Below, piece after piece: positions 38,709-53,620 of a stretch of DNA of 64,000 bases. Position 1 is the stretch's first letter; each line of letters opens with the position of its first letter. The stretch spans positions 18,745 through 82,744 of IMG/VR virus record IMGVR_UViG_3300028840_002702; one strand, written 5' to 3'. Source of the stretch: a virus. The position numbers and the translations under genes were made by a program. A model generated the notes under the pieces. The model worked only from the letters and a program-made list of their open reading frames with translations, was not told the DNA's origin and searched no databases.

Positions 38709-39260
38709 ATGAAATTTAACACAATAATGGAAGCATTTAAAATACCTTCTAAACAAAAACGTTTAGAAAAGATTGGTTTTAATGAAGAATTATTCCAACA
38801 AAATATTAAAGAAGCAAGAGATAATACTAGCTTCAATGATTTTGATATTAAACTAGAATCGGATTTAACACCTTATGGTCTTGAAAGTCTAGTAACACGT
38901 CAACTAATAAAATCTGCTGAATTATATGATGGATTTAAACATGAAAAAAATACAACATTCGACTCAGTAATATTATTCATAAAAGAAGCTGAAGACTATA
39001 AAATCGACCTCAAGTACATAATTAAATCTGATGATTATGAACAAGTCGAAATATCATTTTATGTATTCTTTGATTATCCTAATTATAAACTATCAAAAGG
39101 TACATTTGGTGCACGAAAATTTTATAACAGAATAACACATGAAGATGTTTTAGATCTAAGAAACTATATCTTAACACCAGATGATGTTAGTGTTAGTGAA
39201 AGTTGGGGTATTACAGTTGATACTTCTTATTTTAAACTTAGTGAGCTCAGAGATGAATAA
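38709..39260 (+). CDS. CTS-family protein, possible internal capsid protein (copy 2)
   Basis: 183 residues. The N-terminus MKFNTIMEAFKIPSKQK has the shared motif with I6-M-E8-A9-F10, a T4-like prohead-protease site. After it, FDIKLESDLTPYG and several acidic/basic strands follow; the layout (short leader, then an alpha/beta domain of about 160 residues) is shared with the next three genes although identity is low. AAAAAGGA precedes the ATG. First gene of the late-type unit. Role inferred. Confidence 0.58.
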   Translation: MKFNTIMEAFKIPSKQKRLEKIGFNEELFQQNIKEARDNTSFNDFDIKLESDLTPYGLESLVTRQLIKSAELYDGFKHEKNTTFDSVILFIKEAEDYKIDLKYIIKSDDYEQVEISFYVFFDYPNYKLSKGTFGARKFYNRITHEDVLDLRNYILTPDDVSVSESWGITVDTSYFKLSELRDE

Positions 39261-39777
39261 ATTTACAAACAAATATAATACTTTATTGGAAGCATTTAAA
39301 CTTCCACAATCTAATACACTAATTAGGCAGTATCAAAATTTATACGATTTAACAGAAGAACAAACTGAAAAATTCATAAAACATGCGGATTTTGTTGATA
39401 AATTAAAAACGATCAAATTTGAAATTCCTGTTAGTAAAGATCCAGATAATAATTATGATATGGTTGGTAAAATCCATAAAGTAATTGAAAAGGTCTTACC
39501 AAAAAATTATGAAATTGACGCAATGAATAATGTATTCTGGGGTAAACCAATGTTTTACACTAAAATAACAGTTGCTAATAGAGAAAATGATGGTACTGCT
39601 GCGATAGTTATTCATATAAATCAGGCCGCCAATGGTAAAATTATTGTTGATAATTTTATTTATTTTGATGATGTCAAATTTTTAAATTCAGAAGAAGTAT
39701 CTTTAATGGATGATACAATAACAGATAATATCTTTAATGATATAAGATCAGTACCAAATATTTTTTCAGTAAAATAG
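39253..39777 (+). CDS. CTS-family protein (copy 3)
   Basis: 174 residues from the ATG at 39253, which overlaps the previous stop by 8 bases; the longer frame starting at 39181 lies inside the upstream gene. It begins MNKFTNKYNTLLEAFKLP with L11-L-E13. The body is distinct, rich in Asn and Lys. Expected to be packaged and trimmed if the leader works as proposed. Confidence 0.57.
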   Translation: MNKFTNKYNTLLEAFKLPQSNTLIRQYQNLYDLTEEQTEKFIKHADFVDKLKTIKFEIPVSKDPDNNYDMVGKIHKVIEKVLPKNYEIDAMNNVFWGKPMFYTKITVANRENDGTAAIVIHINQAANGKIIVDNFIYFDDVKFLNSEEVSLMDDTITDNIFNDIRSVPNIFSVK

Positions 39778-39786
39778 GAATATAAA

Positions 39787-40332
39787 ATGAATAAATTTAA
39801 TAACAAATATAAACAATTGATAGAAGCATTCAAAGGTCCATCAAAAGACCAAATATTAAAATATTATGGGTTAAGTACTGGTGAATTTTTACAAAAGTAC
39901 AAACTATTTTTTCGCGATATAAGTTTTAAATCATTTGATATTTACATTTCTGAAAAATTTATGGAAGAAATAATTCAAATATTGATTAAATCATATATTG
40001 GTTCTAAAAATAAGATCTGGAGTGATACACCGGATCTTACATCACTTATAATTGAACGTAATTTTGATGATGAATCAGTTATTTGGTTATATTTTGACTT
40101 TATAAATCTTAAAGAGAAAAATATAATTGATGTTTCATTAATGTATGATCCTCATAATCAAAAAGTTGATAGATCTTTATTTATACGTGGAAATCAGGTA
40201 TTTAATATTGATGGTTCTATGTTAGATGAGCAAATATTGTATAAATTTATAGATAAAATGCAAAATATAAAATTAGATGTCGAATTAGGTAATAAAATTA
40301 TACATAGTCTTAATACGGAAGATTTAAAATGA
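39787..40332 (+). CDS. CTS-family protein (copy 4)
   Basis: 181 residues beginning MNKFNNKYKQLIEAFKGP with L11-I-E13. The following region FKSFDIYISEKF corresponds to FNDFDIKLESDL in copy 2 and is the only body similarity I can see. AGGA lies upstream. The next paralog overlaps it by ATGA. Confidence 0.57.
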   Translation: MNKFNNKYKQLIEAFKGPSKDQILKYYGLSTGEFLQKYKLFFRDISFKSFDIYISEKFMEEIIQILIKSYIGSKNKIWSDTPDLTSLIIERNFDDESVIWLYFDFINLKEKNIIDVSLMYDPHNQKVDRSLFIRGNQVFNIDGSMLDEQILYKFIDKMQNIKLDVELGNKIIHSLNTEDLK

Positions 40333-40853
40333 AATTAGAAACATTTTTAGAAGCATTCAAAGTGCCACAACATGAAGATTTAATTAAAAAGTTCGAAGTA
40401 GAAGGTGCCGTAGAAATGTTCAAACTATTTGGACAAATCAAGTGGGATCCATTTACATTTGAATTTATAGATCAGATAAAACTTGATTATGAAAAACAAC
40501 AAAATCAATCATTTTCTCTCTTAATTACACTCTTTAAAAATATGAATTATGATACTAAAATATTTGAAGCAACATTAGAAAATAAAATATATGTTCGCCC
40601 ACTATCTGATGATTTAGTGCAATTTGATGGAACTAAATTTTCTATATCAGTTGCAAATTCTGGTAAAATTATATTCAATATTGAAGCAGTCGCTCAAAAT
40701 GAAAATTCGTTATCACGCTTTTCTCAAATAGGACCATTTGAAATCTACGATGAAAAGAAAATGAATACTGCTATTAATATCATTACTTCAGATTACGCTA
40801 CACTTCATCTCATTGACGATGGCGGTCAAGGTTCAAAAATTCAACTTCCCTAA
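40329..40853 (+). CDS. CTS-family protein (copy 5)
   Basis: 174 residues beginning MKLETFLEAFKVP; here the third residue before the cut would be Phe (F6-L-E8), the one exception to (L/I)-x-E. The body has DPFTFEFIDQIKLDYE at the position of the FDI strand of the others. Last gene before the repeat region; the sequence after its stop becomes richer in GC and non-coding. Confidence 0.56.
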   Translation: MKLETFLEAFKVPQHEDLIKKFEVEGAVEMFKLFGQIKWDPFTFEFIDQIKLDYEKQQNQSFSLLITLFKNMNYDTKIFEATLENKIYVRPLSDDLVQFDGTKFSISVANSGKIIFNIEAVAQNENSLSRFSQIGPFEIYDEKKMNTAINIITSDYATLHLIDDGGQGSKIQLP

Positions 40854-41063
40854 AAATATTCCATCACAAGCATGGCGGCAGACTTACGATCATGCTCACC
40901 TTAAAACATTAATTGAATATAAATTTCGCTATTATATATCTTCATGGCAGTTCGAGATCATTCCGAAAGCCATGGGGATATACACTCATCCCTTAGGGAC
41001 GGATACGATTCAAAGCCTCTTCCTATATGATCCGAAGATTCCTATATAGGGGCTTCAAAAATA
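40854..41063. other. Non-coding spacer with hairpin
   Basis: No convincing gene. A bulged hairpin at 41013-41055 pairs AAGCC and CCTATAT with ATATAGG and GGCTT; CAAAAATAA follows. It may end the late transcript. An open frame crosses the spacer but has no ribosome site. Confidence 0.5.
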
Positions 41064-41215
41064 ATCAAAAGACGATCAAAAGACGATCAAAAGACGATCA
41101 AAAGACGATCAAACAATCATCAATCATCAATCATCTATCATATCTTATCTTATCTTATTATCATATCATCAATCATATCATCAATCATATCATCAATCAT
41201 ATCATCAATCATATC
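41064..41215 (+). repeat. Short tandem repeats, 11-bp and 12-bp units
   Basis: ATCAAAAGACG occurs four times in a row at 41064-41107. Then ATCATCA and TATCT-type short units lead into AATCATATCATC, repeated about four times at 41159-41215. All units are built on ATC/ATCA. Confidence 0.85.
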
Positions 41216-41225
41216 TCAACAAACG

Positions 41226-41297
41226 GGTTATAACCTCAAGAACCCTTCCCATCCCAGAAACCCTCTATTGGCATTTTTCTACGAGCAGGTTATAACC
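41226..41297. repeat. Two copies of palindrome GGTTATAACC
   Basis: The 10-bp palindrome GGTTATAACC lies at 41226-41235 and again at 41288-41297, 62 bases apart, just before the 37/38-bp array. Such paired palindromes fit a binding site for a dimeric protein. Confidence 0.55.
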
Positions 41298-41350
41298 AGT
41301 TGTACCGCGCTTATTAACCTCTGAAGTATATGGCTTTTTGTTACGAGCCA

Positions 41351-41805
41351 GTTGTTCTAAACAACTTTGGAAGTAAGTAATATACCCGTTGTTACGAGCT
41401 CTAATTAGATTAAAGTAATATACCAGTTGTTCTAAACAACTTTGGAAGTAAGTAATATACCCGTTGCTACGAGCTCTAATTAGATTAAAGTAATACACCT
41501 GTTGTTCTAAACATATACATTCTACGAGGTTGTGTACGAGTTGTTACGAGCTTGAATACATTCAAGTTATTCGCACGTTGTTCTAAACAACTTTGGAAGT
41601 AAGTAATATACCCGTTGCTACGAGCTCTAATTAGATTAAAGTAATACACCTGTTGTTTCAAGCTCTAATTAGATTAAAGTAATATACCAGTTGTTCCTAA
41701 CTATTTTGGGAGTAAGTAATACACCTGTTGTTCCTAACTATTTTGGGAGTAAGTAATATACCCGTTGTTTCAAGCTCTAATTAGATTAATGTAATACACC
41801 CGTTG
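41351..41805 (+). repeat. Compound tandem array, alternating 37-bp and 38-bp units
   Basis: Ten occurrences of AGTAATAYACCNGTTG start at 41376, 41414, 41451, 41489, 41602, 41640, 41678, 41715, 41752 and 41790 (last one TGTAATA). The stretch between them is one of two kinds: type A (TTCTAAACAACTTTGGAAGTA or TTCCTAACTATTTTGGGAGTA; 37-bp unit) or type B (TACGAGCTCTAATTAGATTAA or the TTTCAAGC variant; 38-bp unit). Order: A B A B, a 75-base interruption, A B B A A B. Type A starts with a small hairpin GTTGTT/AACAAC; type B centres on palindrome TCTAATTAGA. Non-coding. Confidence 0.85.
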
Positions 41806-41896
41806 CTTGGTACTTAAAAACCTTTAAAGTATTTGACTATTAGTAGGGAAACTAAGAATCAAAGCTATTAGCAAAATACTACATCCCAGCGTTGTT

Positions 41897-41980
41897 ACGA
41901 GCCTTTTGCTACGAGCCTTTGTATACGAGCCTTTTGTAACCGGCTTTTAGATACGAGCTCTTTTGAACGAGACTTAAAGC
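41897..41980 (+). repeat. Six 14-bp iteron-like direct repeats
   Basis: ACGAGCCTTTTGNT-type units start exactly every 14 bases at 41897, 41911, 41925, 41939 (degenerate, ACCGGC), 41953 and 41967. They lie just upstream of the AT-rich promoter of the 42150 gene. Confidence 0.8.
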
Positions 41981-42023
41981 GAAAAAAAGTTTTAAAAAAG
42001 TAGTACTTTTTAATATTTATGTA

Positions 42024-42054
42024 TTTACTTATATCAGTTTTGAATTATATTATA
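42024..42054 (+). promoter_or_regulatory. Early-type phage promoter for GC-rich gene 42150
   Basis: TTTACTTA, 13 bases, TTATATTATA. It gives a long leader of about 90 bases that carries a small hairpin (42115-42127) also present before the paralog at 60430. Confidence 0.68.
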
Positions 42055-42114
42055 TATAGGTGGAGGGTAATATATAATGGATATATTAACCCTGCTGCCG
42101 CCCTTAATTAAAAC

Positions 42115-42127
42115 GGGCATTGCGCCC
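42115..42127 (+). promoter_or_regulatory. Leader hairpin shared with the 60430 paralog
   Basis: GGGC, five-base loop, GCCC, preceded by TTAATTAAAAC. The leader of the 60430 gene has TTAATTAAAAC followed by TGGGC, CTCT, GCCCA at 60398-60411. Sequence differs but pairing is kept. Confidence 0.55.
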
Positions 42128-42149
42128 AACACCAAAAAGGAGATCTACC

Positions 42150-42581
42150 ATGATCACCAAAAACGCCGCCACTCTGGCAATCCTGACCGAAGCCCTCAAC
42201 TCCCTGGCAGTCCGTGCGAAGAAGAACAAACTCCAAGACGGTGACACTAAGTTGCTCGAATCCATCTGGCGTTGCTCCTTCACATCCCACACCAAATACG
42301 ACCGCGAAGCGGTTGGCGAGTTCGCAAAAATCATCAACTACGGCGGAACACCTCCTACCAAGCCGGAAAACGATGATCAGGAACAATACGACTACGTCGT
42401 ATCCAACGCCCATAAGTGGATCGCAAAATGGGATATCTGCCCTAAGATAACCGCTAAGCTCGAAGAAGAAGCTGCCAAGAAGAAAGCTGAGGAGCAAGCC
42501 GCGAAGGAAGCTGAGAAAGCGGCTAAGGAAGCCGAAGCCGCCGCTCAGAAGGACGAATCCTCGGAAGAGAAATCCGCCTAA
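42150..42581 (+). CDS. GC-rich, codon-biased protein with coiled-coil tail (paralog of 60430)
   Basis: 143 residues from the ATG at 42150 (AAGGAG upstream). The N-terminal 100 residues contain SIWRCSFTSHTKY and NAHKWIAKW, both conserved in the protein at 60430. The last 45 residues are Ala/Glu/Lys repeats (EEEAAKKKAEEQAAKEAEK), a long single helix or coiled coil. Base and codon use are far richer in G and C than neighbours, with C-ending codons. Together with promoter, leader hairpin and strong terminator this points to very high expression. Function unknown. Confidence 0.75.
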   Translation: MITKNAATLAILTEALNSLAVRAKKNKLQDGDTKLLESIWRCSFTSHTKYDREAVGEFAKIINYGGTPPTKPENDDQEQYDYVVSNAHKWIAKWDICPKITAKLEEEAAKKKAEEQAAKEAEKAAKEAEAAAQKDESSEEKSA

Positions 42582-42595
42582 CGGATAACCACCCT

Positions 42596-42625
42596 CCCCG
42601 GACCTCCATGGTCCGGGGACCTTTT
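42596..42625 (+). terminator. Strong GC-rich rho-independent terminator
   Basis: CCCCGGACC at 42596-42604 pairs perfectly with GGTCCGGGG at 42610-42618, loop TCCAT, followed by ACCTTTTG. Confidence 0.85.
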
Positions 42626-42777
42626 GAGTCGCATTAATTGTCCAGAGCAAATAGTTGTACAGAGAAATTCTCGCGAGCTCGCCGCAATTAGTGGATTCAA
42701 GAGGTCCTCGGATACCTTGAAATCCGCAACTTAACCAAACAACGAGCTCCTTTCAACGAGCTCAAAGGAACGAAGAA

Positions 42778-43017
42778 ATGAGCATGATCATGGCAATGGT
42801 CCCTCACAAGACAACATCTGCCGGGGTACCAATCATCCCTCGTCAGCATCTCTCAACTGAAACTCGCTTTAACGCCCGTGAACGTGGTGGTGCGGTTCTT
42901 ATCACTGGGGAGAAGATCTCCTATAAGAAAGGTGTTGGTTACCTTTATACTCACTCCTACTCCCTCCGTGCAAAATTGGACACATTCCTCCACTGGTGGG
43001 ATGGCAAAGTACTCTAA
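42778..43017 (+). CDS. Small basic protein of unknown function
   Basis: 79 residues, basic, ending in FLHWWDGKVL. CAAAGGAACGAAG precedes the ATG. This and the following genes carry the ACGAG motif just after their ribosome site. The 159-base stretch before it has no gene; it contains two AACGAGCTC copies. Not recognised. Confidence 0.6.
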   Translation: MSMIMAMVPHKTTSAGVPIIPRQHLSTETRFNARERGGAVLITGEKISYKKGVGYLYTHSYSLRAKLDTFLHWWDGKVL

Positions 43018-43052
43018 CGAGCCTTAACGAACGAGCATAAAGGAACGAGATA

Positions 43053-43781
43053 ATGTCTCACACTTTTCTTAAAACAAATTATGCCGATCATGGCATATGT
43101 CTAGGCGTTCCCTACTCTGATGGGAGCGGTTATACCACACCGCAAGTGGTAGAATACAACTTGGCGCGCCGAATGTTCTATAACTGGCGGGTAGCAGTAT
43201 ATCGCAACAGTGATAGTCAGATGCAAGTTTTGATCAATCCTACCGATCAAGAAGAAGCATCTGGATGGTTTAATGGTTCAGAAGAAGTCGAAGGACGAAT
43301 CATCGAATATGTTGCAATAGACTGTGGATCATTTTTTGATATGGATGATGGAACATGTCTTCGAATGTCACATCCAATGGAAGAATTGATTGAGTGGTCA
43401 TGCATCCTCAACGTATTCAAAGCTAAATTCTGCCCAGACATTGAATTGGCACCTAGTGCAGGATTCATTGGAGCCAAACGGAATGCGAGAGATTACAAGG
43501 TTCGATTAATAGAAGCAATCTCCTCGGCAGACTTTGAAGGGAAGGATGAGATGATCAGTAACGAGCCCTTTCCAACGACCACTTTTGATCATCAACTTGA
43601 TCAAAATGATCGCGATAAGATCATTACTAAGATCAATGAGATCTTAAAAGATGGTGTTAAAGTTGGTTGTGATTCAACGATCGTTGGCAATACTCGACAA
43701 ATCTGGAAAGCTCTTGGAATTGATCAACATCAAGAAAACCGAGTTGTTAACCTACTGAAGCGTGTAATTGATAACATCTAA
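43053..43781 (+). CDS. Unknown protein
   Basis: 242 residues. AAAGGAACGAGATA precedes the ATG. The first half is beta-like (RMFYNWRVAVYRNSDSQMQVLINP); the second half has a helix-turn-helix-looking end (VGNTRQIWKALGIDQHQENRVVNLLKRVI) that might bind nucleic acid. No family recognised. Base composition is richer in GC than the first 40 kb. Confidence 0.62.
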   Translation: MSHTFLKTNYADHGICLGVPYSDGSGYTTPQVVEYNLARRMFYNWRVAVYRNSDSQMQVLINPTDQEEASGWFNGSEEVEGRIIEYVAIDCGSFFDMDDGTCLRMSHPMEELIEWSCILNVFKAKFCPDIELAPSAGFIGAKRNARDYKVRLIEAISSADFEGKDEMISNEPFPTTTFDHQLDQNDRDKIITKINEILKDGVKVGCDSTIVGNTRQIWKALGIDQHQENRVVNLLKRVIDNI

Positions 43782-43792
43782 ATACGAAGATC

Positions 43793-44059
43793 ATGTCAAA
43801 CAAAGAAATTATAACATGGAATACTGGGCGCCAGTATACGAGGGAAGGTCAACGAATTGGAGCAACTATCCATGAAGGAATAGTTCAATTCTCTGATTAT
43901 GACCGAATGGTATCGGGGACCTTCCCACATATACCTGGTATTGATCTGAAAGAACAAGTCATGGATCACTACGACAATAACAAATATAGTTGTAGTATGC
44001 CATATGAACACCGACAGGAGTTGGAAGAGTATATCAAGGAACATGCACCAACCCTCTAA
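43793..44059 (+). CDS. Unknown small protein
   Basis: 88 residues, acidic end, ATG 11 bases after the previous stop with only weak GAAGATC upstream. No motif recognised. Confidence 0.58.
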   Translation: MSNKEIITWNTGRQYTREGQRIGATIHEGIVQFSDYDRMVSGTFPHIPGIDLKEQVMDHYDNNKYSCSMPYEHRQELEEYIKEHAPTL

Positions 44060-44076
44060 CAAGAAAGGAACGAGCT

Positions 44077-44256
44077 ATGATCAACGAGCTAGAACAACAA
44101 GAACGACCACCTCAAGTAGTAAAAGAAGAACTAATCAATCTTCTCCAGGAATTCTCAGATCATCTCTTCAGTGGAAACTATGATGGTGATTGGGATGAAG
44201 ATGATATCCAAGATATCAAGAATGCAACAGGAATCCTCCAAGACGAAATTGAATAG
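44077..44256 (+). CDS. Small acidic protein
   Basis: 59 residues starting MINELEQQERPPQ, helical, with an acidic centre (GDWDEDDIQDIK). GAAAGGAACGAGCT lies before the ATG at 44077, and the next gene follows 8 bases after the stop with the same type of leader. Not recognised. Confidence 0.6.
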   Translation: MINELEQQERPPQVVKEELINLLQEFSDHLFSGNYDGDWDEDDIQDIKNATGILQDEIE

Positions 44257-44264
44257 GACGAGCT

Positions 44265-44564
44265 ATGACGAACGAGAAATGTAAATGTAAATGGGGCCAG
44301 TATTATTCTGAGAATGAACATGGTCAATCCGTATGGGTCTGTGACGAATGTGGTGCAGTTCGTGATAAACCAAAAGAACAAGAATTCACCTGCGCAGAAT
44401 GTAATAAGGAGATTCATGGCAGAATCAATCTAGTGGATCCAGGATCCTATGGATTTGTTAGATTCAAAAATGAACCACATGAAGAGATCTGTGATGAATG
44501 CTGGGATCGCAGAGTCAATAACCAAGGAGATCGTTACTACCTAAATAGCGAGGCAGCCTACTAA
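44265..44564 (+). CDS. Cysteine-rich zinc-ribbon-like protein
   Basis: 99 residues with four cysteine pairs: C-K-C near the start, CDEC (26-29), CAEC (43-46) and CDEC (76-79). Two zinc sites are likely. GGACGAGCT precedes the ATG. It lies just before a small membrane protein. No specific family recognised; nucleic-acid or protein binding is possible. Confidence 0.62.
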   Translation: MTNEKCKCKWGQYYSENEHGQSVWVCDECGAVRDKPKEQEFTCAECNKEIHGRINLVDPGSYGFVRFKNEPHEEICDECWDRRVNNQGDRYYLNSEAAY

Positions 44565-44753
44565 ATGAAATATGAGAAGATTAAAATCGTTATAGGTGCA
44601 TTGTGTCTAATAGCATCTATAGGAATAATTACATATATCAGTACGAGACCAATCAACGAGCTTGGCTTGTACGAGTTTGTAATCAATTCATTCTTTCTGA
44701 TACTATGTGCAATCATAGTAGATAAATGGTTGTTTATAAGGATGCGTGACTAG
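44565..44753 (+). CDS. Small membrane protein, two transmembrane segments
   Basis: 62 residues starting directly after the previous stop, with hydrophobic stretches at about 8-25 (VIGALCLIASIGIITYI) and 40-55 (INSFFLILCAIIVDKWLF). No known motif. One of at least six such small membrane proteins in this half. Confidence 0.6.
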   Translation: MKYEKIKIVIGALCLIASIGIITYISTRPINELGLYEFVINSFFLILCAIIVDKWLFIRMRD

Positions 44754-44903
44754 TGTCACTCGGTGTCCCTCGTTAGCTATCACGCGAGCGAGAACACAAT
44801 TCCCAACAACCCAAACAAACCCTCCCTAACGGGTAGACCTATGTCTATATAATCACGTTTCGTTAAAAGTAAACTAAGAAAAGACTGGAGTTGAAAAAAA
44901 GTT
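44754..44903. other. Non-coding spacer with antisense promoter candidate
   Basis: 150 bases without a gene. Contains TCTATATAATC on the plus strand, a minus-strand early-type promoter match at 44843-44873, and a GC-rich segment with CTCGTTAGC and CGCGAGCGAG that can form small stems. Confidence 0.5.
44843..44873 (-). promoter_or_regulatory. Early-type promoter on the minus strand
   Basis: On the minus strand: TTTACTTT, 13 bases, TTATATAGAC, the exact pattern of the plus-strand promoters. It points left toward the 44565 and 44265 genes, where there is no minus-strand gene, so it could make an antisense RNA. Confidence 0.45.
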
Positions 44904-45071
44904 ATGTTCAATAAGAATGCTCTAATTATAATAGGAGTAGTACTGTTCATTTATGGTGTTATCTTTCCCCCACCTAAATCAATTGAATTCATGCGTCAAC
45001 CAATGATTACTGCATCTATTATCCTATTAGTATTAGGTAGTACATATACAAACTTGGATAAAAAAGAATGA
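44904..45071 (+). CDS. Small membrane protein, two transmembrane segments
   Basis: 55 residues: hydrophobic segments at about 6-22 (ALIIIGVVLFIYGVIF) and 34-48 (ITASIILLVLGSTY), with a PPP turn between. GGAG lies about 15 bases before the ATG. It overlaps the next gene by ATGA. Probably an inner-membrane protein; role unknown. Confidence 0.58.
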   Translation: MFNKNALIIIGVVLFIYGVIFPPPKSIEFMRQPMITASIILLVLGSTYTNLDKKE

Positions 45072-45172
45072 AGAACTCAACAAAAGAACTTTTAATATTC
45101 ATTGCATTATTCCTTAGTATATTATTCATGATGACTGCACCTCTATGGATGTATTGGATTCTTGGAAAGTGA
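45068..45172 (+). CDS. Very small membrane protein, one transmembrane segment
   Basis: 34 residues, MKNSTKELL then a hydrophobic run of about 22 residues ending in WILGK. ATGA overlap with the previous gene supports translation by coupling. Unknown role. Confidence 0.52.
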   Translation: MKNSTKELLIFIALFLSILFMMTAPLWMYWILGK

Positions 45173-45350
45173 TCGCAAATGATCATTTTCAGTAGAAAAG
45201 TTGGAATAACCCTAGGGAAGATTTACCTCGTTGTATAAAAATGATCACTTTTTGATCATATGATCACTATTTTTGATCATATGAGAGCTCATATGTATAC
45301 TCCAGATGCTGCTCGTGAACTCTTGTGTTTGAGAATGGGCTGGGATGATC
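45173..45350. other. Non-coding stretch rich in TGATCA
   Basis: No gene seen. TGATCA occurs five times between 45177 and 45285, including a paired TGATCATATGATCA block. It could be a protein-binding or methylation-sensitive region. Confidence 0.5.
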
Positions 45351-45440
45351 AAAGAGATGGGGTGAGATGGCAGTAGATGGCAGTAGATGGCAGTAGATGG
45401 CAGTAGATGGGGTGAGATGGCAGTAGATGGCAGTAGATGG
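45351..45440 (+). repeat. Decamer minisatellite
   Basis: Nine units of exactly ten bases each ending in AGATGG: AAAGAGATGG, GGTGAGATGG, four CAGTAGATGG, GGTGAGATGG, two CAGTAGATGG. No gene spans it convincingly in either direction. Confidence 0.88.
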
Positions 45441-45739: not shown

Positions 45740-45747
45740 AATAAATA
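45740..45747 (+). promoter_or_regulatory. Late-promoter-like box ahead of 45771 gene
   Basis: AATAAATA, one base off TATAAATA, beginning 31 bases before the ATG at 45771. Spacing matches the other late-type boxes of this family. Confidence 0.45.
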
Positions 45748-45770
45748 GTTCTATACAAATGGAGTATAAA

Positions 45771-46250
45771 ATGAAATTTAAGAAATTAATTGAGGCGTTT
45801 AACTATACTACTTCTATAGAGAAAGCTAAAGAAAAGTGGTATAAAGATTTTAATGCAATCAAGTTTAGTGACTTTGAAGTGAGGTGGGATCCGGAAAAAG
45901 ACAATATTGAATCTGTGATGAAAGCTTTATATGATGCTGATCAGTATGATGAAGATTGGGATGACCATGGACCTCCATTCTGGGAAATTGACATGCCATT
46001 ACCTTGGAATGATAATATTCTTTTTACTATTAATCCGTATGAGAATGGTAACATTTCAGTTAGTGTATCTGGGTTTAAAGGACGTGATGGTGTAAGAAGT
46101 GGTGTAGCGGTTAGTGATATTTTCTTAGGTACTGGGCGATTTATTAAAGGATCTTTTACAAACAAGGATCTAGAAGAGATGATGGATGAAGTGTTGGAAA
46201 AGATTATAGATAGAGATCTCCTACACCCTGCATCAAAAGATGACAATTAA
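45771..46250 (+). CDS. CTS-family protein (copy 6)
   Basis: 159 residues from the ATG at 45771; an ATG at 45759 in frame is less likely because GGAG lies between the two. The leader is MKFKKLIEAFNYTT with L6-I-E8. The FSDFEVRWDPEKD strand and the central IDMPLPWNDNILFTINPYE resemble the FDI-strand layout of copies 2-5. A terminator follows the stop by about 50 bases. Role inferred from the leader. Confidence 0.57.
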   Translation: MKFKKLIEAFNYTTSIEKAKEKWYKDFNAIKFSDFEVRWDPEKDNIESVMKALYDADQYDEDWDDHGPPFWEIDMPLPWNDNILFTINPYENGNISVSVSGFKGRDGVRSGVAVSDIFLGTGRFIKGSFTNKDLEEMMDEVLEKIIDRDLLHPASKDDN

Positions 46251-46301
46251 TATGTGATATATCCAGAACTTAAATAACGAGATGTCAACTACGAGATTTT
46301 T

Positions 46302-46330
46302 GGGAGCTTTTGGCTCCCATTATTTTTGTT
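46302..46330 (+). terminator. Rho-independent terminator
   Basis: GGGAGC at 46302-46307, loop TTTTG, GCTCCC at 46313-46318, then ATTATTTTTGTTT. Confidence 0.8.
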
Positions 46331-46350
46331 TAAAAAAGTTTAAGGATAAT

Positions 46351-46381
46351 TTTACTTTGTTAATTTACATGTTATATTATA
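46351..46381 (+). promoter_or_regulatory. Early-type phage promoter ahead of 46421 gene
   Basis: TTTACTTT, 13 bases, TTATATTATA, the consensus form, with an A/T-rich stretch upstream, starting a six-gene unit. Confidence 0.78.
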
Positions 46382-46420
46382 ATAACAACTTATAATGGAC
46401 TTAATAAAAGGAACATTGTT

Positions 46421-47058: not shown

Positions 47059-47295
47059 ATGCCGCGACGTACACAATCGTTACTTGGTGAACTGGTTGAA
47101 GGTTCATGGGAAGAAATCCAGAATTATAACCATGCTGAATTCTTTGATTTTGCCGCCGGAACAATCGATGATTTGACCGAGGAAGAAGCATGGGATTACT
47201 GGGAAGGTGTTGGACTTACACCTCATGCAGATAATGAACATGATCTTGACTGGGAAGAAACTAAAGATCTTGTAGGAGTTTGGGAGTATGAGTAA
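47059..47295 (+). CDS. Unknown acidic protein
   Basis: 78 residues, acidic, tryptophan-rich (WEEIQ, WDYWEG, DWEETKD). It starts directly after the previous stop with GGAGG upstream and overlaps the next gene by 8 bases. Not recognised. Confidence 0.6.
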   Translation: MPRRTQSLLGELVEGSWEEIQNYNHAEFFDFAAGTIDDLTEEEAWDYWEGVGLTPHADNEHDLDWEETKDLVGVWEYE

Positions 47296-47524
47296 AGAAC
47301 TTATCGGGTATCTTGCCTTTTCTAAATCAGGCATTAAGTTCATCAAACCATCTAAACAACGTAAACCGAAAACACAATACAACTTCGGTGGACGAGATGC
47401 TACTATCGAGAAATGTGGTAGTCAATGGGAAGGTGTGTTTGATGATGATCATGGTCACACTTTCATTGCTGATCGGAAACGAGATGTAATTAATGATATG
47501 AAATGTCATGTTAATGTTTCGTAA
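47288..47524 (+). CDS. Unknown basic protein
   Basis: 78 residues, basic in the middle (KFIKPSKQRKPK), possibly beta-strand rich. GGAG lies before the ATG inside the previous gene. Not recognised. Confidence 0.6.
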   Translation: MSKELIGYLAFSKSGIKFIKPSKQRKPKTQYNFGGRDATIEKCGSQWEGVFDDDHGHTFIADRKRDVINDMKCHVNVS

Positions 47525-47546
47525 AATTTGAAGTTGGAGAAAATCA

Positions 47547-47888
47547 ATGAATATTTTACAAAAGCAACTATTGGATAAAAAGATTGTTGGTATTCATGAG
47601 ATCGAAGGATCATGTGTAGATCAATATCATTTGATATTGAATGATGGTACTAAAATTGTTATCAGTAACGAGCATCATACTGGTTCTTTTGAAGTTCATG
47701 AACCTGGAATGATTTGCGGGGGTACTGTTAAAATTCATCGCGATGAATTTGTAAAAGGTCGTACTGAAGATTTCTTTGATCCTTGTTGTATGGTATGTCA
47801 TGAAGAAATTGAAACAGCAATTCTTTATGAAGCTGGACATGAATCTACTTACGTATGTTGTCCAATGTGTTATGAACAAACGAAGTAA
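47547..47888 (+). CDS. Protein with C-terminal zinc-ribbon-like cysteines
   Basis: 113 residues. The first 80 residues have beta strands (LILNDGTKIVIS); the end has CCMVC, then CCPMC, a possible zinc site. TTGGAG precedes the ATG. Function unknown. Confidence 0.6.
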   Translation: MNILQKQLLDKKIVGIHEIEGSCVDQYHLILNDGTKIVISNEHHTGSFEVHEPGMICGGTVKIHRDEFVKGRTEDFFDPCCMVCHEEIETAILYEAGHESTYVCCPMCYEQTK

Positions 47889-47919
47889 GTATTAAAGAAG
47901 ATACTAAAGAGGAAATATA

Positions 47920-48177
47920 ATGTCAGGAAAAATTGAATGGTCAAAGTCTGGATCTTATTCAACAATTCATCCTGAGAAAATCGGGAAAGTCACTGCACCA
48001 AATGGTAAACAATATCGTGCCAAACCAACACTTAATTGTTGTGACTGTGCTTTCTCTTCAATGTTTTCACCATGTAATGATCGTCAAACATTACCATGTG
48101 AGACGGGTGATTTGATTACTATTGATGGCAAAACATATCGTATGGAACGAGATACTGCATGGGAAAAGGTTACTTAA
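47920..48177 (+). CDS. Small cysteine-containing protein, paralog of 49042 N-terminus
   Basis: 85 residues. K-I-E-W at the start, APNGKQYRA, CCDCAF, PC, GDLITIDGKTYRMERD and a final WEKV are shared with residues 1-75 of the protein at 49042. Cysteines C-x-x-C plus a later PC suggest a metal site. GAGGAAA precedes the ATG. Unknown function. Confidence 0.62.
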   Translation: MSGKIEWSKSGSYSTIHPEKIGKVTAPNGKQYRAKPTLNCCDCAFSSMFSPCNDRQTLPCETGDLITIDGKTYRMERDTAWEKVT

Positions 48178-48211
48178 GAAATCTTTTGTTCATTATTTTT
48201 ATAAAAATGTT

Positions 48212-48242
48212 TTTACTTTTATTAAAATGATGTTATATTATA
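48212..48242 (+). promoter_or_regulatory. Early-type phage promoter ahead of 48276/48328 genes
   Basis: TTTACTTT, 13 bases, TTATATTATA. Ends 34 bases before the short frame at 48276. Confidence 0.75.
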
Positions 48243-48275
48243 TTAAACCGCAAGGAATATAATAAAGGATATTAA

Positions 48276-48335
48276 GTGAAAGACCAAATCAAATTTTTAA
48301 ACCTCTTTAAACCATGTGGAGAATATTGTGGCTAA
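48276..48335 (+). CDS. Possible 19-residue leader peptide
   Basis: A GTG-started frame reading MKDQIKFLNLFKPCGEYCG, with AAAGGAT upstream, whose stop overlaps the start of the 48328 gene. It could couple translation to the next gene. Evidence is only the ribosome site and overlap. Confidence 0.3.
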   Translation: MKDQIKFLNLFKPCGEYCG

Positions 48336-48627
48336 GATTACATTAGACTTTGCTGTTGTAACTGAAGAAGAAACGATGGCTTTGTATCAAGAGTTCATTG
48401 AATATCTCTTGGATTTCGGATGTAATAATCCTGATGTACGTGCAATGACGTACGAAGAATTAAAAGAATATCATGCTACAAGAAATCCTAATTCAAACGA
48501 CTTTACACTTACTGGTCATATTGACGACATCAAACTATATCTTAAAGAGAAATACTGTGTTGGTATGACTGAAGAAGATATTAAAGAAACAATAAATTCA
48601 ATTGAAGATAGCGGAGATGTAAAATGA
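48328..48627 (+). CDS. Unknown protein, GTG start
   Basis: 99 residues from the GTG at 48328, chosen because GGAG lies 6 bases upstream; a GTG at 48316 in frame would add four residues. Alpha/beta pattern, acidic (MTYEELKEYH, GMTEEDIKETINSIED). The next gene overlaps it by ATGA. Not recognised. Confidence 0.58.
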   Translation: MAKITLDFAVVTEEETMALYQEFIEYLLDFGCNNPDVRAMTYEELKEYHATRNPNSNDFTLTGHIDDIKLYLKEKYCVGMTEEDIKETINSIEDSGDVK

Positions 48628-49058
48628 CTAAAGAAGAACGTGCCGCTTATATGAGGGAGTATCGAAAGAAAAATCCCGAATATGCTAAAAAATGTAGTGA
48701 ATATACGAGACAATGGCGGGAAAATAATCCGGAACGAAGCAAAGAATTATGTGATAAATCACGTGAAAAGAATCGTGATAAAATTAATGCACGGAAACGT
48801 GCAAAACGTGCAGCTGATCCTGAGAAAGAACGTGAAAAAGAACGTGCATATCGTGCACGTAATCCTGAATTAACTAAAGCACGGAACAAAATATCTAACG
48901 ACAAAGCTATTGAAGAACGTCGTAATGATGAAGAGAAACGATTGGCGTATAATAAACGTATGCGTGAATATCGTAGAAAGAATCCTGAAAAGATCAAAGC
49001 AATTAACGATAAATGCAGAAAGAAAAAATTGGAGGAAGAAAATGTCAAAGAAAGTTGA
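48624..49058 (+). CDS. Highly charged repeat protein (YRxKNPE repeats)
   Basis: 144 residues, nearly all charged, with repeats of YMREYRKKNPEY, YTRQWRENNPER, YRARNPEL, YNKRMREYRRKNPEK spaced about 20-25 residues apart. This looks like a long basic helix, seen as the helical part of some HNH endonucleases and DNA-binding phage proteins, but no HNH motif is present. It may bind DNA or RNA. Overlaps both neighbours. Confidence 0.65.
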   Translation: MTKEERAAYMREYRKKNPEYAKKCSEYTRQWRENNPERSKELCDKSREKNRDKINARKRAKRAADPEKEREKERAYRARNPELTKARNKISNDKAIEERRNDEEKRLAYNKRMREYRRKNPEKIKAINDKCRKKKLEEENVKES

Positions 49059-49647
49059 ATGGACTGAGAACATGATTGCTGATTATGTATCAGTTGATGA
49101 ACTCCAAGATGTCGAAGCTCCCGACGGGAAAAAGTATCGCGCAATTGAATCTAAAGAATGTGAAAACTGTGTATTCAAAAATACTACTAAGCCATGCCTA
49201 CCATGTGGTGTTGGTGATACAATTGTTATTGAAGGACAGGTTTATCGTCTTGAAACTGGTTTAGAATGGGAAGAAATAAAAATGATGAAATATCTAGTAA
49301 GTGAAGATTACCAACAAAATGTTTCAACTATGCAAATAATGTTTGATGATCTGTGTAAGAAGCACAAAATTAAAACAAAATTTGTAGCTGAAGCAGAACT
49401 CCCAAGTGATGGAATGGGTGATATCTATATTCATCCAAGCGAAGCAGGTCCTGGAAATGAAAAACCTTACTTTATGATTCTTGGTAATCGAGATGAAATC
49501 ATTTCATGTGAAGGATTGGATAAAGATGCTAAAGTCTATTACCCAGAACATTGTGCTTTAGCTTATTGTGCCGCAGATGGTGACACCGAAGATGTTTTTA
49601 AGACTGAAGAAGAAATTGTACAATGTTTAAAACAATTTGATAATTAA
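49042..49647 (+). CDS. Two-part protein; N-terminus paralogous to 47920 protein
   Basis: 201 residues from the ATG at 49042 with GGAGGAAGAA upstream, overlapping the previous gene. Residues 1-75 match the 47920 protein (K-V-E-W, APDGKKYRA, CENCVF, PC, GDTIVIEGQVYRLE). Residues 80-201 are a different acidic domain (MKYLVSEDYQQNVSTM, IYIHPSEAGPGNEK, CALAYCAADGD). Looks like a duplication followed by fusion. Unknown function. Confidence 0.62.
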   Translation: MSKKVEWTENMIADYVSVDELQDVEAPDGKKYRAIESKECENCVFKNTTKPCLPCGVGDTIVIEGQVYRLETGLEWEEIKMMKYLVSEDYQQNVSTMQIMFDDLCKKHKIKTKFVAEAELPSDGMGDIYIHPSEAGPGNEKPYFMILGNRDEIISCEGLDKDAKVYYPEHCALAYCAADGDTEDVFKTEEEIVQCLKQFDN

Positions 49648-49658
49648 AAGTAATTAAA

Positions 49659-49697
49659 AACCTGTTTAATCTAATAAATAATAAAAACAAACAGGTT
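49659..49697. repeat. Hairpin enclosing a late-promoter-like box
   Basis: AACCTGTTT at 49659-49667 pairs with AAACAGGTT at 49689-49697; the 21-base loop contains AATAAATA at 49673-49680, which begins 31 bases before the ATG at 49704. Confidence 0.5.
49673..49680 (+). promoter_or_regulatory. Late-promoter-like box ahead of 49704 gene
   Basis: AATAAATA, one base from TATAAATA, 31 bases before the start codon, the same offset as at 45740 and 38679. Confidence 0.45.
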
Positions 49698-49703
49698 ATT
49701 TTA

Positions 49704-50246
49704 ATGTCTAAATTTGATGACAAATATTTACAATTGATGGAAGCATTTAAACTTCCATCATCAAAAGATATGGCAAAGCTACTTACTGGGCGATTTGGTA
49801 AGTCAATGTATTTTGAACCATTCAATATTAAATTAGAAGATTATCTCTATTATAATAACGAAGGTTTACCAACTGGCTTTAAAGAAGAATTAAGAGATTT
49901 TCTTATAAGCAAAATATCTGGAGATTATGAACTAAAAGATACTAATTATGGATGGGATCCTGATTACAAAGAATATAGAAATCTAAGTATAGATGGTAAA
50001 GGTAGTAAGGGGAAAGAGAAAAGTTATCCTTCTATTTGGATGTCTTTGCCAAAGTACTCACATGGTAATCAACATGTTGTAAAAATTACGGTATATTATT
50101 ATAGTAAAAGTTATACACCTCTTGCGACACAAACTCTTGCAATACAGACAGACAATAACTTTACTGAAAAAACAATTAATGACCTTTTAACTAAAGTAGC
50201 AGGTAAAGCTACAAAAGAAAAAGAATTAAGGATTTATGGAAGATGA
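49704..50246 (+). CDS. CTS-family protein (copy 7)
   Basis: 180 residues beginning MSKFDDKYLQLMEAFKLP with L11-M-E13. The body has FEPFNIKLEDYLYYN, equivalent to the F-x-FDIxL strand of other copies, then a region with several aromatic residues. ATGA overlap with the next, longer copy. No early promoter ahead. Confidence 0.57.
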   Translation: MSKFDDKYLQLMEAFKLPSSKDMAKLLTGRFGKSMYFEPFNIKLEDYLYYNNEGLPTGFKEELRDFLISKISGDYELKDTNYGWDPDYKEYRNLSIDGKGSKGKEKSYPSIWMSLPKYSHGNQHVVKITVYYYSKSYTPLATQTLAIQTDNNFTEKTINDLLTKVAGKATKEKELRIYGR

Positions 50247-51298
50247 ATAAATTTAATGACAAATACAATAAATTAATGGAATCTTTTAACGTTCCTACAA
50301 TGGATAAAAGACTTGATAAATTTATTGATCGCTTACCTGTTCCAATTAAGGTAGGACCTTTTAGTATTAAAATAAACGAAGATTTTATAAGTAGAGAAAA
50401 CTTAGAAGTAATTAAAGATGCAATAATATTCCCAGAACATTCTGATGATGTGGAAATTAGGATAGTATCCAGACATTACGGTGTTCCGGGGACAAGCACA
50501 GAGGTTGGATTAGTTAATATGTATATTAAAACAACTGACGGTAAAAAGCTTCAATATAATTTTACTATATCACGTGATCTTGAACAAACTTTTGCAAGTT
50601 TCGCAATAGACGACGGTGTCTATCAATTTTATGATGAAATAACATTTGATGAAGAAGCCAAAGAATTAACTGATGATCATTTAAATGCTATCGTTATTAA
50701 AGTTGCTATTGATATTCCGGAAGAAGATTATGATTTAGAAGATTTAGAAGAAGCTTTTAAAATTCCTAAAAATGCTTTTGTTAAAAAAGCAACTGAAGGA
50801 CATGATATCAACTTAGATAAATTTGAAATTGATACTGAAGGAATGTCCAAAGTTAAAGCAGCTTTTGAATTTGCAGATGCTATTAAAAACAATTTATCAG
50901 GTGATTTTGAAATGTCGTTTCTATCTTGGCAACATCCTAGGAAAAAATCAAACGTATTACATACAATCAAGCTAATATTTGATGAAAATAAATCAATGAC
51001 TATTTTAGTTACAACGCTTGATCCAGCTACAATACAATTCCGAGGAGAAGGAAAACCTAAAACATTTAGAGATCTTCAAAAAAGACAACAAAGATACAAA
51101 AACGCTCGATCGAAATTTCAATCACCACAAGAGTTTATAACATTATTTATCTCAAGATTTGATGATGAAACTAAGAAAGCTGGTTCTGGACAAATACGAT
51201 TACTTAACGTTGGTAAAGATGGTAATGTATTAAAATCTGATGTTGTTGAAGAAGAAATTCATAATAGTGCTAAACAGTTTGTAACTGGCAAAAAATAA
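50243..51298 (+). CDS. CTS-family protein, tandem fusion with internal motif (copy 8)
   Basis: 351 residues. N-terminus MNKFNDKYNKLMESFNVP with L11-M-E13; then, at residues 165-175, LEDLEEAFKIP repeats the motif with L168-E-E170-A171-F-K-I-P. Each half has its own FxIxx strand (VGPFSIKINEDF, INLDKFEIDTE), so the protein is two family members joined end to end, with a second possible cut site at the joint. This internal copy supports the motif as the conserved functional element. A terminator follows. Confidence 0.6.
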   Translation: MNKFNDKYNKLMESFNVPTMDKRLDKFIDRLPVPIKVGPFSIKINEDFISRENLEVIKDAIIFPEHSDDVEIRIVSRHYGVPGTSTEVGLVNMYIKTTDGKKLQYNFTISRDLEQTFASFAIDDGVYQFYDEITFDEEAKELTDDHLNAIVIKVAIDIPEEDYDLEDLEEAFKIPKNAFVKKATEGHDINLDKFEIDTEGMSKVKAAFEFADAIKNNLSGDFEMSFLSWQHPRKKSNVLHTIKLIFDENKSMTILVTTLDPATIQFRGEGKPKTFRDLQKRQQRYKNARSKFQSPQEFITLFISRFDDETKKAGSGQIRLLNVGKDGNVLKSDVVEEEIHNSAKQFVTGKK

Positions 51299-51307
51299 TT
51301 TAATTAA

Positions 51308-51336
51308 ACTCCCAGGTTTTCTTGGGAGTATTTTTG
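51308..51336 (+). terminator. Rho-independent terminator
   Basis: ACTCCCAGG at 51308-51316, loop TTTT, CTTGGGAGT at 51321-51329, then ATTTTTGTG. Confidence 0.82.
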
Positions 51337-51359
51337 TGTAAAATTTTTATAAAGATTAT

Positions 51360-51390
51360 TTTACTTTGAATAATTCTATGTTATATTATA
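51360..51390 (+). promoter_or_regulatory. Early-type phage promoter ahead of 51424 gene
   Basis: TTTACTTT, 13 bases, TTATATTATA, 34 bases before the ATG. Confidence 0.78.
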
Positions 51391-51423
51391 TTAACTTAGG
51401 AATATATTAATATAAGGAATAAC

Positions 51424-52005
51424 ATGAAAAACAATTTAACATCTACTATGCAACAAATTGATGTAAGTCCTAAAGATTTCATTAATACTCCAAAAGCAAA
51501 AGAATTAGGCTGGAATATACACAATCATTGTTTTCCTGAAGTTCCATATACATATTTTGCATATTTCCAAGATGTTGAAGATGCATTATCGCTTTCATGT
51601 CATCAAGAAAATTCTCTTAATTGGGAACTTAATATTAAGAAAGACACTGAAGTGGTCACCACATATTTCCTTTCCAAGAACGATGCATATCAATTTATTA
51701 AGATGTTCTTTGGAATTGAAGTCAATGAGTCTTTTGCACGAATTGAGGAACCGGTTAATTGTTGTGATGAACCATTTGTTCGAGATATTTTTTATATTTG
51801 GTCATGTCCAACATGTAAAAGTAGCTTTGATAAGGACGGATGGTATTGTGAGCCATCCCCTGATAAACGATGTCATTACTATTCAAGAGATGGAAAAATT
51901 TCTCTTCGAAATGGTAATACAGTTGATATTCCAACTGACCATGATCCTGAGTATGAAACAGATGATTGCTGCATTTTCTGTGGTGATCCAGATGAAAGGA
52001 AATAA
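51424..52005 (+). CDS. Unknown protein with cysteine-rich C-terminus
   Basis: 193 residues. The first 110 residues have no motif; then NCCDE, SCPTCKSSF, WYCEP, RCHYY and CCIFCGD give ten or more cysteines, probably two zinc sites. AAGGAATAAC precedes the ATG. Unknown function. Confidence 0.62.
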   Translation: MKNNLTSTMQQIDVSPKDFINTPKAKELGWNIHNHCFPEVPYTYFAYFQDVEDALSLSCHQENSLNWELNIKKDTEVVTTYFLSKNDAYQFIKMFFGIEVNESFARIEEPVNCCDEPFVRDIFYIWSCPTCKSSFDKDGWYCEPSPDKRCHYYSRDGKISLRNGNTVDIPTDHDPEYETDDCCIFCGDPDERK

Positions 52006-52006
52006 C

Positions 52007-52213
52007 ATGAAAACTAAAGTAAAAGCTGTAACGGTTAAGAATTCTAAGGAAGTTCCAGAACAGCTTATGGTCAAAGATGGAAAGCTTCTTTGTAAGGATG
52101 GATCTGAACCTGACTTTTCTAATTTTCCAGATGGTGATGTGAGTCTTATTATGACTGAAAGGTTTAAGAGAGATTTGGATGACGTATGGATGCTTAATCA
52201 TTGGGGTGCTTAA
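52007..52213 (+). CDS. Unknown small protein
   Basis: 68 residues from the ATG at 52007, with AAAGGAAATAAC upstream; a longer overlapping frame from 51557 is a shadow of the previous gene. Begins MKTKVKAVTVKNSKEV. Unknown. Confidence 0.58.
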   Translation: MKTKVKAVTVKNSKEVPEQLMVKDGKLLCKDGSEPDFSNFPDGDVSLIMTERFKRDLDDVWMLNHWGA

Positions 52214-52429
52214 ATGGTAATGACTATAAAACCAATAATACCATTTGAAGTATTCGTGATAAGTATGGTTGGTTTATTTATCATCAGTCTTTTATTCATT
52301 GCATGGAAGTCTGTTAATTCCAAGCTCGAAAAGGAATGGCTACTAAATGGTAGTATTATTATAGGTATCATGTGGTGTATTACATTTGTCGCAGTTGTGT
52401 ATGAAAACTGGGATAAAATGTTTCTCTAA
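52214..52429 (+). CDS. Small membrane protein, two transmembrane segments
   Basis: 71 residues starting right after the previous stop. Hydrophobic segments at about 11-28 (FEVFVISMVGLFIISLLF) and 44-62 (LNGSIIIGIMWCITFVAVV), a charged loop between. Unknown role. Confidence 0.6.
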   Translation: MVMTIKPIIPFEVFVISMVGLFIISLLFIAWKSVNSKLEKEWLLNGSIIIGIMWCITFVAVVYENWDKMFL

Positions 52430-52432
52430 AAT

Positions 52433-52463
52433 TTTACTTTATTATAATGTAAGTTATATTAAA
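52433..52463 (+). promoter_or_regulatory. Early-type phage promoter ahead of 52501 gene
   Basis: TTTACTTT, 13 bases, TTATATTAAA, just after the 52214 gene stop. Confidence 0.72.
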
Positions 52464-52500
52464 TTTTATGTGGCAATCTAGATGAAAGGAAATAATAAAG

Positions 52501-52800
52501 ATGAGCGACAACCAACAAATCGTACGATGGGCGAATGCTATCGCCCGGGCAACACAAAAAGTTGAATTCAACAATGAAGCTGCTGAGCTTGGTTGGGAAC
52601 ATGATGAATTTGGAATCATGGCACAAGTGTTGGTCGATGATGCAATGCTTGAAATGGATCCACAATGTATAGGCGAAGACGTTGAAGCTTATGGTGAATT
52701 CCTCGAAAATGATTCTGAAAATTGGTGGCATTGGATTGATCAAACAATCGGCACCGATTGGGGAAAAGTAGCTAAAGTGATTCACGAAGAAGGTTATTAA
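52501..52800 (+). CDS. Unknown acidic protein
   Basis: 99 residues, acidic, tryptophan-rich (LGWEHDEFGI, NWWHWIDQ). Helical pattern. GAAAGGAAATAATAAAG precedes the ATG. Not recognised. Confidence 0.6.
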   Translation: MSDNQQIVRWANAIARATQKVEFNNEAAELGWEHDEFGIMAQVLVDDAMLEMDPQCIGEDVEAYGEFLENDSENWWHWIDQTIGTDWGKVAKVIHEEGY

Positions 52801-52859
52801 TTTAGTAGAAAGAAATGACAATAATTTTGATTCTACCATATCTTAAAAGGAAAAAAGAG

Positions 52860-53033
52860 ATGCCAACAAAACCAACACTCAGAGATGACGCCGAACAAAT
52901 CGTTGATACTTATGGTATGAATGTATGTAGTGAAACCATTTACGAATGGGCAAATGAATTTCTTGTTGATTACTCAGATTTGCAAGATGAAGTATATAAA
53001 GTAATCAGAGAACGAAAAGAAGCTGAAGCTTAA
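52860..53033 (+). CDS. Small unknown protein
   Basis: 57 residues from the ATG at 52860, with AAAAGGAAAAAAGAG upstream; the longer frame from 52815 is not supported. Helical, acidic. Its stop overlaps by 4 bases the end of the convergent minus-strand gene. Not recognised. Confidence 0.55.
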   Translation: MPTKPTLRDDAEQIVDTYGMNVCSETIYEWANEFLVDYSDLQDEVYKVIRERKEAEA

Positions 53034-53620
53034 CGCCAACTAAATGATTTGCCTGGAATAGTTTTAAAGCCGGATATGTCTACTTTAATGCTTGATAAAA
53101 TATTTAAGATTTCTTGTAATTTCTTAGAATCTAATTCATTCCATGGCAACTCAGTGTCAATAACCTCTTTAAATCCACCAACCAATTGTTTCGGTAATTC
53201 ATGACCAAGAACTTGACCAGTATCTAATGTTAGTTCTAAAATGATATCAATTATATCATAATTGAAATCAATAATCATTTTACAATTAGCTACATTACCT
53301 ACATTAATATCAAATGCTTTTGTTATTGTTCTGTTTTCTCTCCAATTATTTGGATCGAGTAAAGGAATTTTTTGACTAATATGTATTTCGTTACCAATTG
53401 GTTTAACTTTAGCACCTTCAGGTACACTGAGTGCATAAGTTAATGTACGTTTCAAATTAATTTTTCTTTTAATTGGACGGAACATTGTAGTAACTTTAAT
53501 ATTATTAAGAAAGTTTTTAAATGGTTCAGTTAAGAATGATACATTCTTTTTCTTTATAGCATCTTTTGGTATTTTAAATGCTTCTTTAAGAATATTATAA
53601 GTTTTAATAAATTGTTTCAT
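53030..53620 (-). CDS. CTS-family protein on the minus strand (copy 9)
   Basis: 196 residues beginning MKQFIKTYNILKEAFKIP with L11-K-E13. The body is unlike the other copies but has a similar length. It is one of only two minus-strand genes and lies inverted relative to every neighbour; a perfect late-type box precedes it on its own strand. That a family member with its own promoter sits inverted suggests independent movement of these genes. Role inferred. Confidence 0.57.
   Translation of the reverse strand: MKQFIKTYNILKEAFKIPKDAIKKKNVSFLTEPFKNFLNNIKVTTMFRPIKRKINLKRTLTYALSVPEGAKVKPIGNEIHISQKIPLLDPNNWRENRTITKAFDINVGNVANCKMIIDFNYDIIDIILELTLDTGQVLGHELPKQLVGGFKEVIDTELPWNELDSKKLQEILNILSSIKVDISGFKTIPGKSFSWR

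Follow-up and report, generated by a model that had tools for sequence, protein, structure and literature searches.

Leader-bearing genes at the locus

The window analysed here is a 64,000-nucleotide stretch (bases 18745–82744) of the 82,744-base virus record IMGVR_UViG_3300028840_002702. Coordinates below are window positions unless stated otherwise, and the remainder of the record outside the window is denoted L001. An initial annotation had described nine open reading frames (ORFs) that share only an N-terminal leader with the core L-x-E-A-F-K-x-P, and had proposed them as internal proteins packaged in the phage head. All nine ORFs are present at their reported positions (Table 1). The motif [LIMF]xE[AS]F[KNR] occurs within the first 25 residues of eight of them, far above the 0.06 expected (maximum 2) from 2,000 trials in which residues were shuffled within the same 223 N-termini, and these eight fit the pattern [F/Y]xx[L/I/F]xE[A/S]F[K/N] at residues 5–16. 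The ninth, 25402, is a weaker member: it has the first half of the leader in common with the others, but its L-Q-E is offset by one residue and EAFKxP is absent. L/I-x-E, the T4 prohead protease signal on which the annotation had relied, is indeed found in eight of the nine ORFs, the exception being the F-L-E of 40329. The residue after Glu is Ala in seven ORFs, Ser in one and Tyr in 25402, and the Glu itself is residue 8 in a short form of the leader, residue 13 in a long form and residue 14 in 25402. A tenth copy, absent from the annotation, lies at residues 167–175 inside the 351-residue protein encoded at 50243. This is the only occurrence of the motif outside N-termini in the ORF set of the record, and the protein therefore looks like two joined leader units.

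A leader consensus was built from 20 copies in three contigs (the record and two relatives described below). Relative to the Glu at position 0, which is invariant, it has F/Y/L/V at −5, L or I at −2 (19 of 20 copies, the other being F), A at +1 (one S), F at +2, mostly K at +3 and mostly P at +5; long forms add F at −9. The hydrophobic residues are spaced 4-3-4, as in an amphipathic helix. AlphaFold models of the 38709 and 50243 products both show a leader helix that stops before the proline, at low overall confidence (mean predicted local distance difference test scores of 46 and 55, respectively). Pairs of leaders that agree in a residue use different codons for it in 37% of cases (40% expected from phage codon usage). 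Codon divergence close to that of random choice indicates that selection has kept the leader peptide and not the DNA; a recent DNA duplication of the leaders is ruled out by the same comparison.

The claim that the bodies diverge holds in pairwise comparison, as phmmer searches with the leaderless bodies gave nothing significant between window members. In a leave-one-out profile test, however, the bodies of 38709, 45771 and 49704, both halves of 50243 and two bodies from a related contig ranked in the top 27 among about 580 decoys, whereas the remaining bodies ranked at random. Because of these high ranks, the former subset may consist of very diverged paralogues with a partly shared body. Searches of all leader proteins against Pfam and PHROGs returned nothing above the cut-off, and fold searches with the two low-confidence models gave no match at E 0.001.

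Table 1. Leader genes and associated signals (window positions; a slash marks the proposed cut).
Feature	Position	Strand	Remark
T4-type late promoter TATAAATA	25377..25384	+	25 nt before ATG of 25402
129-residue protein, weak leader MNKFNKKYEKLLQEYR	25402..25791	+	L-Q-E, no EAFKxP
A+T-rich hairpin, then T-run	about 25805–25841		downstream of 25402 gene
Terminator-like hairpin	38644..38666	+	upstream of four-gene leader unit
T4-type late promoter TATAAATA	38679..38686	+	30 nt before ATG of 38709
183-residue leader protein MKFNTIME/AFKIP	38709..39260	+	opens a closely packed run of four leader genes
174-residue leader protein MNKFTNKYNTLLE/AFKLP	39253..39777	+	start overlaps end of 38709 gene
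181-residue leader protein MNKFNNKYKQLIE/AFKGP	39787..40332	+	
174-residue leader protein MKLETFLE/AFKVP	40329..40853	+	F-L-E, not L/I-x-E
Late-promoter variant AATAAATA	45740..45747	+	31 nt before 45771
159-residue leader protein MKFKKLIE/AFNYT	45771..46250	+	
Terminator-like hairpin	46301..46319	+	directly 3' of 45771–46250
Late-promoter variant AATAAATA	49673..49680	+	31 nt before 49704
180-residue leader protein MSKFDDKYLQLME/AFKLP	49704..50246	+	
351-residue two-unit leader protein MNKFNDKYNKLME/SFNVP	50243..51298	+	first unit acidic, second basic
Internal second leader DLEE/AFKIP	50741..50767	+	possible internal cut site between two units
Terminator-like hairpin	51308..51329	+	directly 3' of 49704–51298 unit
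T4-type late promoter TATAAATA	53645..53652	−	32 nt before ATG of 53030..53620 gene
196-residue leader protein MKQFIKTYNILKE/AFKIP	53030..53620	−	transcribed against neighbours
Sigma70-like promoter sites	42024, 46351, 48212, 51360, 52433, 53694, 54672, 56180, 56817, 58447	+	eleventh at record position about 18511

Lineage and late promoters

Outside the window, gp46/gp47-like genes were recognised by eye, a homologue of the late sigma factor gp55 is encoded (phrog_234, E 1.5e-32), and an operon on the minus strand includes a baseplate wedge gene (phrog_219, E 3e-32). The DNA polymerase encoded in the record gives matches of about 30% to T4-like phages. These genes identify the record as a fragment of a T4-like phage from a lineage without a cultured close relative. 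Searches of viral contigs with the DNA polymerase, gp46 and sheath found distant relatives or none, and single leader proteins gave no match in direct tblastn searches of 50,697 phage records.

All five leader-headed units have a late promoter of the form [T/A]ATAAATA 25–32 nt before the ATG, those of 45771 and 49704 through the variant AATAAATA. The sequence TATAAATA is the late promoter of T4 and KVP40, while S-PM2 uses NATAAATA (PMC2984593), and A in place of the first T is the commonest variant among T4 late promoters (PMC2988020). Exact TATAAATA lies 22–36 nt upstream of four of the 124 genes of the record, three of them leader genes (25402, 38709 and, on the minus strand, 53620) and the fourth the leading gene of the baseplate operon; the enrichment at leader genes has a hypergeometric P of 0.001, or 6e-5 when variants beginning with A or C are included. 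In the related contig G001 the same sequence stands 22–40 nt before 15 of 92 genes, including sheath, tail tube, neck and other structural genes, and ranks first among the 56 permutations of its letters (permuted 8-mers precede a mean of 1.2 genes). The eleven sites in the record with a sigma70-like promoter, TTTACTTT-N-TTATATT(AT), lie mostly a short way upstream of genes, one of which (54719) encodes a sigma factor; no leader gene has such a site in front of it. With their own late promoters, with terminator-like hairpins after 46250 and 51298 and before 38709, and with no sigma70-like promoter ahead of them, the leader units look like self-contained late cassettes amid genes of another promoter class. 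At the promoter level, the gp55 homologue and the late promoters together point to expression late in infection with the virion genes.

In T4 itself, no late promoter stands immediately before ipII or ipIII; TATAAATA-type sites are found at the e gene, upstream of both, from which the two are presumably co-transcribed. Tandem-repeat blocks with units of 11, 12, 75, 14 and 10 bases (41064–41219, 41348–41805, 41892–41975 and 45365–45440) are found in the interval that separates 45771 from the first leader cluster.

The leader in related contigs

Degenerate DNA patterns for the leader led to two further contigs, G001 and L013. G001 (68 kb) encodes seven strict leader proteins with different bodies, together with tail sheath, tail tube and head–tail connector proteins and a terminase-like gene. 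In L013 (9.6 kb), four leader genes with bodies of 86 to 286 residues lie upstream of a T4-type large terminase gene (Pfam). The two contigs have a pair of orthologues with 42% identity: the G001 member bears the leader, and its L013 counterpart has I-T-E-A at a similar location but lacks FKxP. In G001 the motif is also found on a protein of a different family, where it follows a basic stretch and lies about 40 residues from the N-terminus. In marine contigs of another T4-like group, a 121-residue protein beginning MKFLRLIEAFK is encoded directly after gp23, in a cluster ordered gp20, S77 protease (gp21), scaffold (gp22) and gp23.

A blind search of 2.9 million viral contigs with the leader pattern returned 41 stretches, with short chance ORFs among the matches. 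The gp21 family PF03420 is present in 11 of the 32 other contigs matching the pattern, and many contigs that lack it are only short fragments.

Further leader-like sequences were also noted. In L040 (2143–3411) and in L021, L045, L052, L053 and L055, MKFSDFMEAFKFWKK (MKFSDFMEAFK) lies inside an ORF for a head maturation protease (phrog_976, E 8e-84); it is possibly a convergent cut or docking site, perhaps at a protease–scaffold junction, and is not used as evidence here. Neighbouring genes at 5206–10526 of L048 have N-termini resembling the T4 capsid-targeting sequence (CTS), among them MIEFNEFITEA, MVINSFKNYLVEE and MKFKSFVEAFSEP. In the cultured T4-like Flavobacterium phage Immutovirus (NC_055915, L072), which encodes an S77 protease, three proteins (546, 14371 and 15372) with different bodies have a leader of another kind in common, F[DN]L[KR][KS]FL.ENKLT.N[SA]..L.E.

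Proposed mechanism and alternatives

The initial proposal of a packaging tag with a gp21-type cut is still the best explanation of these observations, and it gains support from the late promoters, the gp55 homologue, the clusters beside terminase and the leader gene that follows the capsid gene; two features, the conserved AFKxP and the mostly acidic bodies, depart from T4. We consider it likely that the leader is a lineage-specific analogue of the T4 CTS, that it is cut by a gp21-type protease at L/I-x-E and that the cargo is ejected. Packaging of the leader proteins in the head is the part in which we have most confidence and appears highly probable; cleavage of the leader is also probable, though less firmly so.

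In the proposed mechanism, the leader would form an amphipathic helix, with aromatic residues at −9 and −5, L/I at −2 and F at +2 and ending at Pro +5, that docks proteins synthesised late in infection on the prohead scaffold core. At maturation, the S77 protease would cut after L/I-x-E and split the docking helix. As we infer that the helix spans the scissile bond, the cut would release the cargo, and the freed body, starting AFK-x-P, would stay in the head and leave with the DNA. The bodies might then counter host defences or aid take-over, a tentative suggestion made only by analogy with T4 Ip1–3. It is rather unlikely, but conceivable, that the scheme extends further: one cut at a docking surface spanning the scissile bond would both process and undock, the 351-residue protein would be a packaged polyprotein split in the head into acidic and basic effectors, and EAFK-type addresses would have arisen repeatedly in T4-like and Mu-like head pathways.

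A number of observations weigh against packaging with cleavage. Neither the 82.7-kb record nor G001 contains a match to gp21 (PF03420), gp23 (PF07068) or gp20 (PF07230), and the capsid module is missing from both; as controls, the PF03420 and PF07230 models recover their T4 targets, and PF03420 also recovers Immutovirus gp21. With the capsid module missing from the fragment, the gp21-like protease that the initial annotation had suggested looking for is out of reach in this genome, and the family was met only in the other contigs noted above. AFK-x-P is kept after the cut, where a purely removable tag would not need it, and L/I-x-E is a very short motif. Most bodies in the window are acidic (pI 4.4–5.3), the basic ones being 49704, 53620 and the second half of 50243. 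The spacing of the T4 CTS (Y4, F7, I8 and E10) is not reproduced, the aromatic residues lying at −9/−5 here and at −6/−3 in T4. Finally, late promoters show no significant enrichment at the strict leader genes of G001 taken by themselves, although they do at a broader set of N-termini, in which L/I/M-x-E follows an aromatic residue (P 0.002).

The residues retained past the proposed cut (F +2, K +3 and P +5) would fit a motif that works whole, that is, an uncut virion docking helix that attaches to a component of the core, portal or neck and remains part of the mature protein, with L/I-x-E being incidental; the late promoters and genomic context would suit any virion protein. We regard this as improbable, since the invariant E, the nearly constant A at +1 and the L/I at −2 are what a protease site predicts, the L013 ortholog has I-T-E-A without FKxP, and the internal copy joins the two units of the 351-residue protein. 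More doubtful still is a single old paralogous family of, for example, non-virion proteins, in which the N-terminus is the slowest-evolving part (such as a target-binding segment) and not a transferable tag. The high profile ranks of some bodies, a weak FxxFxI-like pattern in some and the similar order of elements in both halves of the low-confidence 50243 model agree with such a family, but other bodies rank at random, those of L013 differ more than threefold in size, the motif in G001 can stand behind a basic stretch on a different family's protein, and the late promoters suggest synthesis at the time of the virion proteins. A different late role, such as targeting to membranes or replication sites or control of translation, would accord with the lack of fold matches and with a function that is only predicted, but is very unlikely for a leader with no hydrophobic stretch and an acidic, cut-site-like centre, whose genes adjoin terminase or capsid genes in relatives.

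If the leader is indeed a packaging address, it would provide a means of recognising, from sequence, the injected proteins of uncultured T4-like phages. Different T4-like lineages would then run the same tag-and-cut system, each with its own consensus, and about 20 proteins without a Pfam or PHROG family would become candidates for early anti-defence or take-over functions. To our knowledge, targets have been established for no more than a few injected T4 proteins, and those were found in T-even phages.

Other genes in the window

Two adjacent proteins (37556–37933 and 37939–38625) have different bodies and another shared N-terminal motif, MK.R.GFVSNSSSSSF; in the first of them, a match to phrog_7397 is confined to the 32 N-terminal residues. 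A paralogous pair with Lys/Glu/Ala-rich tails (42120–42581 and 60430–60927; E 1.7e-12) belongs to no known family. A long run of genes at 888–13831 encodes, as judged by eye, glycosyltransferases, methyltransferases and sugar/nucleotide enzymes, and the products of 2480–3940 and 10058–12193 have a common C-terminal domain (VAVVGPAP.I.GSKQR.LIDSYD). A C5 cytosine DNA methylase-like protein (30194–31480; E 2.5e-15) and a macro-domain protein (34228–34845; E 9e-9) are also encoded.

Comparison with known systems

T4 internal proteins (IPs) enter the prohead core through a CTS of 10–19 residues, which gp21 cuts after L/I-x-E, and the mature IPs are divergent in sequence; in the CTS of IPIII, residues 4 and 7 serve mainly in targeting, while residues 8 and 10 set cutting (PMC9026906). 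T4 injects Ip1–3, which inhibit GmrSD restriction enzymes, each protein acting on a different one (PMC12373910). The leader resembles the CTS of IPI–IPIII (MKTYQEFIAE, then A) in being short and N-terminal, in its hydrophobic and aromatic positions and in L/I-x-E followed by Ala, and the two systems are alike in their unrelated mature bodies and T4-type late regulation. Its length agrees with that of the T4 CTS, the short form being slightly under the IP range (Alt has 7). The leader differs in its conservation past the cut, in its eight or nine copies in one fragment and in the two-unit protein with an internal copy, and mature T4 IPs are basic, whereas most bodies here are acidic. On present evidence the leader appears to work like the T4 system, but we do not assign it to either T4 family (CTS or IP), since a test for the T4 sequence pattern was negative and a protease match from the same genome is not obtainable from the fragment.

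The ejection proteins gp53 and gp54 of SPN3US have an identical N-terminal propeptide region on diverged bodies, which the prohead protease removes (PMC5694885). The likeness lies in a conserved N-terminal propeptide on diverged packaged proteins, packaging being predicted here; the SPN3US propeptides are, however, about 125 residues long and belong to a giant phage outside the T4-like group with another protease lineage. The 121-residue protein of the marine T4-like contigs differs in being a single copy of one family with no P at +5, and its relative in Immutovirus keeps part of the motif only (MRLLELLREAKEA), but it has the same pattern in its first 11 residues and is encoded in a head cluster together with gp21.

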